Shown here in pieces: positions 16,567 through 34,040 of a stretch of 36,725 bases of DNA (positions are counted from its first letter, which is position 1; each line of letters begins with the position of its first letter). The stretch comes from Bacteroides caecigallinarum (GTDB lineage: Bacteria; Bacteroidota; Bacteroidia; Bacteroidales; Bacteroidaceae), in contig NZ_JACJLE010000043.1 of the NCBI RefSeq assembly GCF_016901995.1, positions 1 through 36,725 on the forward strand. Reading direction: 5' to 3'. The notes below the pieces were generated by a model, which ran no database searches, had not been told where the DNA came from, and was given only the letters and a program-made list of their open reading frames with translations. The position numbers and the translations under genes are program-made.

Positions 16567-16607
16567 TTCCACGTTGTAATTTTTTTGATTATAGACATGC
16601 GAAAAAA

Positions 16608-16695
16608 ACGTGCGGTCGTTTTATATAAAATGAACTGTCGTTTTAAATAGAATGAACTGTTGTTTTTAGTAAAACGTGCGTTCATTTATTTTGAA
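16608..16695. repeat. Array of four tandem 22-base units (array A)
   Basis: Units start at 16608, 16630, 16652 and 16674. Each is a 12-base block (ACGTGCGGTCGT, ATGAACTGTCGT, ATGAACTGTTGT, ACGTGCGTTCAT) followed by a 10-base AT spacer. GAAAAAAA precedes the first unit. The same design recurs at 32989-33054. It lies 41 bases after xylE and beyond the terminator of the convergent hexosaminidase gene. Not protein coding. Confidence 0.85.
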
Positions 16696-16715: not shown

Positions 16716-16757
16716 TAAGCCCTAAAGGTCGCAATGATCTTTAGGGCTTAAATATTT
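16716..16757. terminator. Bidirectional terminator for xylE and the hexosaminidase gene
   Basis: A perfect 12-base stem (16716-16727 with 16739-16750, TAAGCCCTAAAG and complement), an 11-base loop and AT-rich flanks on both sides lie between two convergent genes. AATATTTTT follows on plus, TTTTATTTAG on minus. Confidence 0.9.
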
Positions 16758-32981: not shown

Positions 32982-33024
32982 AAAAAAAACGTGCCCGCAT
33001 TCGAAATCAAATGCGGGCACGTTT
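32982..33024 (-). terminator. Intrinsic terminator of the SPFH gene, formed by repeat array B
   Basis: Arms 32987-33000 and 33011-33024 (14 bases, core ATGCGGGCACGT) pair perfectly around a 10-base AT loop. On the minus strand eight Ts follow directly (A-run 32982-32989). It stands 39 bases after the SPFH stop codon and is built from two of the 22-base units. Confidence 0.85.
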
Positions 33025-33054
33025 AAAGTCAAACACGGGCACGTTTTAATTTAA
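32989..33054. repeat. Array of three tandem 22-base units (array B)
   Basis: Units start at 32989, 33011 and 33033 with 12-base blocks ACGTGCCCGCAT, ATGCGGGCACGT and ACACGGGCACGT, each followed by a 10-base AT spacer. A partial fourth (ACGTGG) runs up to the SPFH stop codon. GAAAAAAAA precedes the first unit, as in array A at 16608-16695. Two blocks are exact reverse complements and make the SPFH terminator. Confidence 0.85.
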
Positions 33055-33062
33055 ACGTGGGG

Positions 33063-34040
33063 TTATCCTTTAAGTATATCCTTAATGCCTCCCAAAGAGC
33101 CAAGTAGGGAAGTAGCTTCGTACGGTATATAGACTGTCTTGTTATCCTTTCCGCTTGTCATTTCTTTAAGGGTCTCGATATATTTCAGTGCAATCTGATA
33201 AGATGCCGGATCAGAGCTTGTTCCCTTTATAGCCTCTGCCAGTTTCTCAATGGCCTCAGCCTCAGCTTTTGCCTGAAGGATTTTTGCTTCCGCTTCACCC
33301 TGAGCCATCAGAATCTGGGATTCTTTCTGAGCCTTAGCCTGATTTATCTGTGCTTCCTTCTCTCCTTCGGAATAAAGAATCTTCGAAGTCTTGTCACCTT
33401 CAGCCTTCAGAATCTTTGCACGGCGTTCACGTTCTGCCTGCATCTGCTGTTCCATGGCACGGCGTACACTCTCGGGAGGAGTAATGTCCTGTAGTTCCAC
33501 ACGGTTTACTTTAACTCCCCATTTGTTTGTTGCCTCGTCAAGAACCTCACGAAGACGGGAGTTGATTGTATCGCGCGATGTAAGAGTTTCGTCCAGTTCC
33601 AGTTCACCGATAATGTTACGTAGAGTTGTCTGCGTGAGTTTCTCTATTGCGTTAGGCAGGTTTTCTATTTCATATACCGACTTGAACGGGTCTGTAATCT
33701 GAAAATACAGCAATGCGTTAATGCTGGTGGTCACATTATCTTTGGTAATCACGCTCTGTTCCGGGAAATCGTAAACCTGTTCACGAAGGTCTATCACGTC
33801 CGACATTCTTATAAGTGTCTGTGTAGCTCCGTTCATTCTTGTTACCACATACCTTGTATAAACTTTTCTCGGTCTGTCAAGAATAGGCCATATTATGTTT
33901 ATACCGGAAGACAACGTGCTGTGGTATCTTCCCAATCTCTCAATCACTTTTGTTTCCCCCTGTCGGATAATTTTAAGCCCTTGCACTGCGAAAACTATCA
34001 CAACAAGTGCCACAAGCCCTACAATAATCAAAGCTCCCAT
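33063..34040 (-). CDS. SPFH/Band 7 membrane protein (stomatin/QmcA-like)
   Basis: The 325-residue protein has one N-terminal membrane helix (3-21), the SPFH domain (about 22-185: RQGETKVIERLGRYHSTLSSGINIIWP, LNALLYFQITDP-type strand, LRNIIGELELDETLTSRD, VNRVELQDITPPESVRRAM) and a long Ala/Glu/Gln-rich coiled coil (about 190-270). A short conserved tail follows. Such proteins oligomerise into membrane cages or rafts and often partner an NfeD protein, which is encoded just upstream here (42-base gap). Role is probably membrane organisation or quality control, inferred from the family. Its stop codon abuts repeat array B. Confidence 0.93.
   Translation of the reverse strand: MGALIIVGLVALVVIVFAVQGLKIIRQGETKVIERLGRYHSTLSSGINIIWPILDRPRKVYTRYVVTRMNGATQTLIRMSDVIDLREQVYDFPEQSVITKDNVTTSINALLYFQITDPFKSVYEIENLPNAIEKLTQTTLRNIIGELELDETLTSRDTINSRLREVLDEATNKWGVKVNRVELQDITPPESVRRAMEQQMQAERERRAKILKAEGDKTSKILYSEGEKEAQINQAKAQKESQILMAQGEAEAKILQAKAEAEAIEKLAEAIKGTSSDPASYQIALKYIETLKEMTSGKDNKTVYIPYEATSLLGSLGGIKDILKG

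Follow-up and report, generated by a model that had tools for sequence, protein, structure and literature searches.

The four-unit array that begins at position 16,608 of the window, the whole stretch of 36,725 nucleotides of Bacteroides caecigallinarum DNA analysed here, is best explained as a member of a dispersed, extragenic class of Bacteroidota repeats, usually built of three to six units (most commonly four) with dyad-symmetric ends. These repeats are defined by a common geometry and not by sequence: the letters change between species and the register stays. Dispersed repeats of bacteria are mostly ascribed to RAYT-driven REP elements or to IS-derived MITEs. If a factor reads the arrays, they would point to an undescribed genome-wide DNA-binding system in Bacteroidota, with a specificity that co-evolves with dozens of sites; if the arrays are mobile, the enzyme behind them is not a known one. 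We tentatively propose, with confidence somewhat short of even, that the arrays are binding platforms, with two helical turns per unit, for a putative factor co-evolving with its sites, and that they are gained and lost in the manner of REP elements.

The array, which we call array A, lies on the forward strand at 16608-16685. An earlier note on this DNA had described four units in exact 22-base register, made of 12-base blocks and 10-base spacers, with a small set of hexamers paired anew from unit to unit, and all of this is borne out over 16608-16685; the last ten bases of the span it gave, 16686-16695, are flank and not another unit. The blocks are ACGTGC.GGTCGT (16608-16619, within the 18-base unit 16605-16622), ATGAAC.TGTCGT (16630-16641), ATGAAC.TGTTGT (16652-16663) and ACGTGC.GTTCAT (16674-16685). 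The 22-base register stands, but the division into 12 and 10 bases is only another cut of the same 22, and the better one is the consensus unit of 18 bases, AAAACG-N6-CGTTTT, followed by a 4-base linker; array A is a degenerate copy of this 18+4 class. Convergent genes flank it, it is 41 bases from the preceding stop codon, that of a sugar-transporter-like gene (gene names here and below are our reading of the ORFs, save where a family search backs them), and it adjoins a separate, canonical terminator-like hairpin at 16716-16750. We refer to the genome of this window as G000, to its sister genomes as G015 and G018, and to the first array family as F1. After the same transporter gene in G015, array A is absent and a similar terminator hairpin is kept; by eye, the gene beyond is a different one.

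Array B (32989-33066, forward strand) has the same plan, with blocks ACGTGC.CCGCAT, ATGCGG.GCACGT, ACACGG.GCACGT and ACGTGG.GGTTAT, the first two being exact reverse complements. Blocks 1-3 are conserved in two sister genomes (loci L198 and L217). The degenerate fourth block overlaps, at 33063-33066, the 3' end of an ORF at 33063-34040 on the minus strand. Over the window, a degenerate two-unit pattern with up to three mismatches has more matches than chance would give: 28, where 100 shuffles average 12.7 and never exceed 24. Six of the 28, with 0-3 mismatches, come from arrays A and B.

The earlier note had staked its reading on further copies in the same genome and on the lack of a catalogue entry. 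Dozens of copies are present. Array A as a DNA query gave 15 further rows in this genome (E 8.9e-10 to 8.1e-4), two of which are the second strand of places already counted, and two other arrays used as queries brought additional copies. A sequence-only family model, R1, was made from the gap-free alignment of 26 four-unit G000 arrays; it matches array A, itself among the 26 training sequences, at 16602-16690 on the forward strand (64.7 bits, E 1.7e-17). With 150 of 740 candidates scored, this model gave 92 rows in G000, by our count 48 distinct places at E<=0.1, of which 42 reach E<=0.001; 26 of the places had trained the model. Rfam had no match at gathering score on the window, and on 13 loci tested it returned a tmRNA, a SAM-II riboswitch and a tRNA only, none of them covering an array. 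Among 138 arrays, 64 have four units, 44 three, nine two and 21 five or more; those of G015 and G018 have mostly three, and those of B. mediterraneensis and Phocaeicola plebeius five or six. At loci that had been picked for 22-base families, 147 triples of palindromes have a period of 22; the 73 with a period of 33 are the same arrays read at an offset, and no other period between 19 and 33 has more than two. Repeat lags of 21, 33 and 44 are also enriched outside arrays.

Among the matches listed for 60 genomes, with 72 candidates scored per genome, the family model has a match in 22 genomes, all within the genus: 12 of the 36 genus genomes are rich (at least 25 rows), ten have 1-8 rows, which in several look by eye unlike arrays, and 14 have none; nor does any of the 24 genomes from other families. 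Of 296 genomes drawn from the phylum, at least two, this genome among them, have a match at E<=1e-5, a lower bound given the strict filters and 18 candidates scored per genome. A pattern blind to the core, run over genomes of named species, gave 82 stretches, all in what we take, going by record titles, to be Bacteroidota. They come from B. caecigallinarum, B. mediterraneensis, P. plebeius and Ca. P. excrementigallinarum, and also from Prevotella veroralis, P. vespertina, Kaistella, Chryseobacterium, Paenimyroides, Hufsiella, Lentimicrobium and others, though beyond Phocaeicola and Prevotella some of the stretches that occur singly could simply be hairpins of the ordinary kind. The frame and the 22-base register are seen with other words in Phocaeicola/Bacteroides, Prevotella and flavobacteria. 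More tandem repeats of 22-base period, their palindrome not clear, occur at three loci of other Bacteroidota (L096, L153, L172).

What differs from genome to genome is the core, the central six bases of the unit. Its word is TGCGCA in G000, TGGGCA in G015, CCTTGA/TCAAGG in excrementigallinarum, CACTTG in mediterraneensis, TACCTC in both Prevotella and TCCTTA in Kaistella. The mean information per position in core versus linker is 1.23 against 0.22 bits in the P. veroralis/vespertina set, 1.06 against 0.08 in the excrementigallinarum set and 0.91 against 0.12 in the mediterraneensis/plebeius set (linkers 0.05-0.23 bits over the three sets), figures that slightly favour the core because units were oriented by it; the scanner rewards the frame itself, which inflates the frame statistics. 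Only the excrementigallinarum set was found entirely core-blind, since the Prevotella set includes loci from the word pattern AAAACGTMMYTHCGTTTT and the mediterraneensis/plebeius set four loci from the G000 model. Likewise, the arrays of G000 and G015 came mostly from word-biased queries, so the uniformity of words in these two genomes is overstated. Matches to AAAACGTMMYTHCGTTTT number 18 in P. veroralis and 16 in P. vespertina, and in 17 and 15 of them, respectively, the core is exactly TACCTC; the control gave none. The linkers of these arrays differ. In both Prevotella and in excrementigallinarum, words recur beside unlike linkers even inside one array. That the 18-base unit, core included, is better kept within a genome than its linkers fits a sequence-specific factor. 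The largest word family of G000 counts against such a reading: its linkers are also alike, position by position, as whole-array copying would produce with no need of a binding factor.

The register is not confined to F1. Two further families, F2 (GTNACACGWWCGTGTNAC+4) and F3 (TGCTGACTATAGTCGGCA+4), are dissimilar to F1 and keep the 18+4 plan. By our count F2 has 11 distinct places in G000, 19 in G018, 22 in G015 and 11 in G022, and none in G005 or G001. Seventeen F2 chains were listed, three of them shifted readings of real arrays and one (L347) another sequence; the 13 arrays read comprise twelve of four units and one of six, the fifth unit of two five-unit chains (L281, L310) being taken as chance. 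F2 shares ACG-like steps with F1, a likeness of letters by which the two may be remotely akin. With F1 and F2 set apart, a family-blind scan for three consecutive palindromes gave five hits of 22-base period, of which three look real (L291, L101, L189), one proved to be F2 and one is AT-rich; other periods gave 0-2 hits, save four at period 33, at loci picked for period-22 arrays. A phage origin was considered and rejected, as neither the F1 pattern nor an F2 pattern has an exact match in viral_contigs.

Different families also stand at the same sites. Orthologous loci of G018 and G000 are mostly 80-95% identical, and places where G000 has F1 are occupied by F2 or F3 in sister genomes; F3 stands in G018 at the place of G000 array L027. 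We sought 16 G000 arrays in G018 and G015 through their gene ends and compared 13, L003, L017 and L022 having no usable ortholog. By our reading, the 12 loci with a G018 ortholog have F1 at six (one degenerate), F2 at two, F3 at one and no array at three; the 12 with a G015 ortholog have F1 at six, F2 at two and none or nothing recognisable at four, with one-flank-only alignments including L010, L027 and L004 in G015, L002 in G018, L019 in G015 and L035 in both. Between genomes, then, the same place can carry other words, another family or no array. In ten sets of orthologous arrays from G000, G015 and G018, differences number 27 of 588 positions in the frame, the lowest rate of the three, 29 of 294 in the core and 11 of 140 in the linker, pairs within such a trio not being independent. 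The core therefore changes about as fast as the linker at any one place, yet is alike across the genome, which argues for concerted change. Six G000/G018 array pairs have 12 differences at the first triplet position, seven with G in G000 and none with G in G018, a small count in which the seven fall in three arrays and the other five are without G. At one locus (L006/L289/L288), among the lines listed, all three words differ between G000 and G015 (core identity 0.17) with linkers and flanks kept and blocks 1 and 3 still complementary; its linker identities are 0.90 and 0.95, values that 0.5% and 0% of 428 non-orthologous pairs attain. Full replacement of words with kept linkers is clear at this locus only, as kept linkers at four other loci of low core identity were not beyond chance. 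We also saw one unit-number difference of 22 bases (L283/L284) and one inverted 10-base spacer (L199/L222).

With respect to genes, the arrays are extragenic, many stand at 3' ends, and convergent gaps are over-represented. None of 145 arrays lies inside a gene call. Leaving out 23 without genes on both sides, 122 arrays divide into 38 convergent, 58 tandem and 26 divergent gaps, against 14, 97 and 57 among 168 other gaps; the gene caller misses tRNA genes, so some of the divergent cases are tRNA gene 3' ends. The median distance from a gene 3' end to the array is 42 bases (n=134). A tRNA-Thr gene ends beside the array at L008 and L122 and at the sister loci L292 and L293, an arrangement seen in four genomes (G000, G015, G018 and ET12). 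By eye, arrays of different words lie near the same ribonuclease-Z-like gene at L008, L122 and L128, in three species. On one 4.03-Mb contig, G007:C1, the 51 array places among the matches listed are more frequent in the half that lies opposite the GC-skew-inferred origin (mean position at 1.90 Mb; Rayleigh p about 0.02). A role as chromosome-organising sites, tried on this contig, was set aside since this bias is weak.

The neighbouring genes offer no evident carrier. When 671 ORFs taken from array loci were compared all against all, four clusters spanned at least four loci, by eye of TonB/SusC type, AraC type, ABC-ATPase type and one of no recognised kind. In the ABC-type cluster four of the five loci, two of these four being orthologs, have an array as the neighbour, and in the AraC-type cluster at least three of the seven do; both are probably just common gene families, and the idea that the arrays adjoin a gene for their mobility or regulation was set aside. 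Neighbours in genomes outside Phocaeicola look ordinary by eye, and no DNA-binding gene recurs downstream of arrays in the 50 of 56 listed cases that were read by eye. Two observations concern mobile DNA nearby. At L005 and L018 in G000 and L251 in G022, the array has the same IS-like end (..GTGTACTGAATTT..) no more than about 60 bases away, and each of the three contigs runs out 72-105 bases past the start of that end, as if an IS preferred sites beside arrays. Loci L023, L201, L202, L203 and L218 are alike over hundreds of bases, with arrays beside genes that look by eye to be of a DUF3987/DUF4248-type mobile island, so some arrays may travel with islands.

Their place at gene ends would be accounted for if the arrays were bidirectional intrinsic terminators or 3'-end RNA hairpins, with 18-base arms, a loop of four bases or longer and then T-runs. 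As a general account we consider this improbable, although some loci behave so. Array B folds well (z -5.8 and -7.4) and array A moderately (z -3.6 and -2.6), whereas the two direct-repeat arrays tested fold not clearly better than shuffles (L200, z -0.01; L144, z -1.6). The tRNA-Thr arrays of all four genomes each have, by eye, a block pair complementary at 11 or 12 of 12 bases, the locus L006/L289/L288 keeps its complementary blocks through near-complete sequence change, and by eye the G018 place of L004 has a different hairpin instead of an array. Where a gene has its 3' end facing the array, a long T-run with a partner block is found more often (21% of 70, 20% of 64) than where none does (12% of 52, 9% of 58). 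Complementary blocks are common but not required, and a stable stem-loop with a T-run is present in only part of the arrays. Against within-genome shuffles, perfectly complementary block pairs are above chance in G000 and in CASENM/G003, which is better explained by hairpins than by binding; they are borderline in JAFYWH and ET12, at chance in G015, G018 and excrementigallinarum, and below chance in mediterraneensis/plebeius and P. veroralis/vespertina. Most of 12 F2 arrays listed have, by eye, no flanking A- and T-runs, and beside array A the terminator is a separate hairpin that G015 keeps without the array. The block-pair shuffles and fold tests do not support the hairpin as the general plan, and a consensus RNA structure for the 26 G000 arrays was set aside (17 predicted pairs, three with two-sided change, -6.46 kcal/mol). 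Termination may be a role of some arrays, and is not their defining trait.

More weight goes to mobility, which we still think rather unlikely: a REP/BIME- or MITE-like population copied whole by an enzyme other than RAYT and tolerated near gene ends, its words reflecting ancestry. The 26 G000 arrays align without gaps, linkers included; arrays are present, absent or replaced by other families at orthologous places, are patchy among the genomes searched, come in several families per genome, and are enriched in convergent gaps, an enrichment also known for REPs. Part of the earlier note's suggestion of a mobile or recombining element is upheld by these swaps of place, the 22-base change in unit number and the inverted spacer; no transposase was found to go with it. 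PF01797 matched three of 40 genus genomes (G002, G017, G019), with control matches in five of 14 known genomes, and this Y1 transposase family was found in none of the 12 array-rich genomes (three of them only 65-84% complete), on which we reject RAYT-driven mobility. Neither a target-site duplication nor a clean empty-site junction was defined, and by eye most copies show no leader or tail, though about 40 bases before the array are shared by a subset in G000, G015 and G018, some from paralogous loci. Where words recur beside unlike linkers, as in P. veroralis/vespertina and excrementigallinarum, whole-array copying fails to explain their uniformity. It is very improbable that the arrays are a functionless minisatellite by-product, palindromic tandem DNA held in register by template switching at replication; the unit-number change (L283/L284) and the inverted spacer (L199/L222) are what this would predict, but it would predict neither words that hold across the genome, recurring at unrelated loci whose linkers differ, nor a single register shared by several sequence families.

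Words that run genome-wide beside near-random linkers, in a fixed register of two turns, are what make us favour binding platforms. In this proposal, each 18-bp unit would be a site for a putative sequence-specific DNA-binding factor, probably a dimer that grips the symmetric ends and also reads the central six bases. Since units recur every two turns, several bound factors would face the same side of the DNA and could occupy the array cooperatively close to gene 3' ends. The preference of the factor would drift between lineages and the arrays of a genome would drift along with it, producing the words of each species, while the gain, loss and exchange of arrays at favoured sites would resemble what REP/BIME elements undergo. 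We infer the existence and kind of the factor, the cooperativity and any function at gene ends. Of the earlier note's idea of paired half-sites every two turns, the geometry is confirmed, is shared among Bacteroidota and comes with units better conserved than linkers; the protein was not found, and the lack of any such factor among genes near arrays, in the clusters or among neighbours read by eye, counts against the binding reading. The half-sites of a simple dimer are also a poor match to the core, which is strongly asymmetric in Prevotella (TAC.CTC) and asymmetric too in Kaistella (TCC.TTA), and so ill-suited to a plain homodimer site. Binding platforms and a REP-like mobile population can both hold at once. 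A bolder version, which we lean against but consider possible, is a new class of element: register-locked (18+4) palindromic arrays whose dissimilar families coexist and replace one another at gene-end sites, each with its own fast-evolving multimeric DNA-binding protein, so that genomes would switch dialect in concert.

Among known systems, CRISPR arrays also have palindrome-containing repeats at regular spacing; the arrays described here have 4-base linkers between 18-base units in place of spacers of CRISPR length, mostly 3-6 units and several dozen dispersed places. Plasmid iterons are tandem units of about 22 bp that bind protein, but they occupy one origin locus, whereas these arrays are spread over the chromosome near gene ends. 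The broad features of REP/BIME-like elements are present, as the arrays are dispersed, outside genes, palindromic by a dyad test and near 3' ends. REPs, BIMEs and REPINs are likewise dispersed, extragenic and palindromic, with dozens of copies and lineage-specific sequence, and carry a GTAG or CGTC tag, with RAYT for the GTAG kind (PMC3733652, PMC8049555). Our arrays differ in their tandem units, strict 22-base register, failure to yield a RAYT in array-rich genomes and lack of a fixed tag: by eye, no GTAG or CGTC at the palindrome end is common to the species, CGTC occurring only within words like ACGTCA. In a literature survey that was mostly superficial, nothing was found on 18+4 arrays, and the nearest printed element is the related BrickBuilt, a minisatellite/MITE of Porphyromonas gingivalis (PMC4596501). 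BrickBuilt shares with our arrays a Bacteroidota host, an intergenic setting (19 places), short and imperfect tandem units (23 nt), strain-variable unit number, stem-loop potential and the lack of an Rfam match; it differs in its 23-nt repeats without spacers, present in 1 to 22.8 copies in elements of up to 991 nt, in a leader and tail with inverted-repeat ends, and in having no BLASTn match outside the species (PMC4596501). The arrays described here do not match a spacerless 23-nt repeat: their period is 22, as 18+4, in mostly 3-6 units with no general leader or tail seen, and they combine a frame that crosses genera with genome-specific cores and several dissimilar families in one register.
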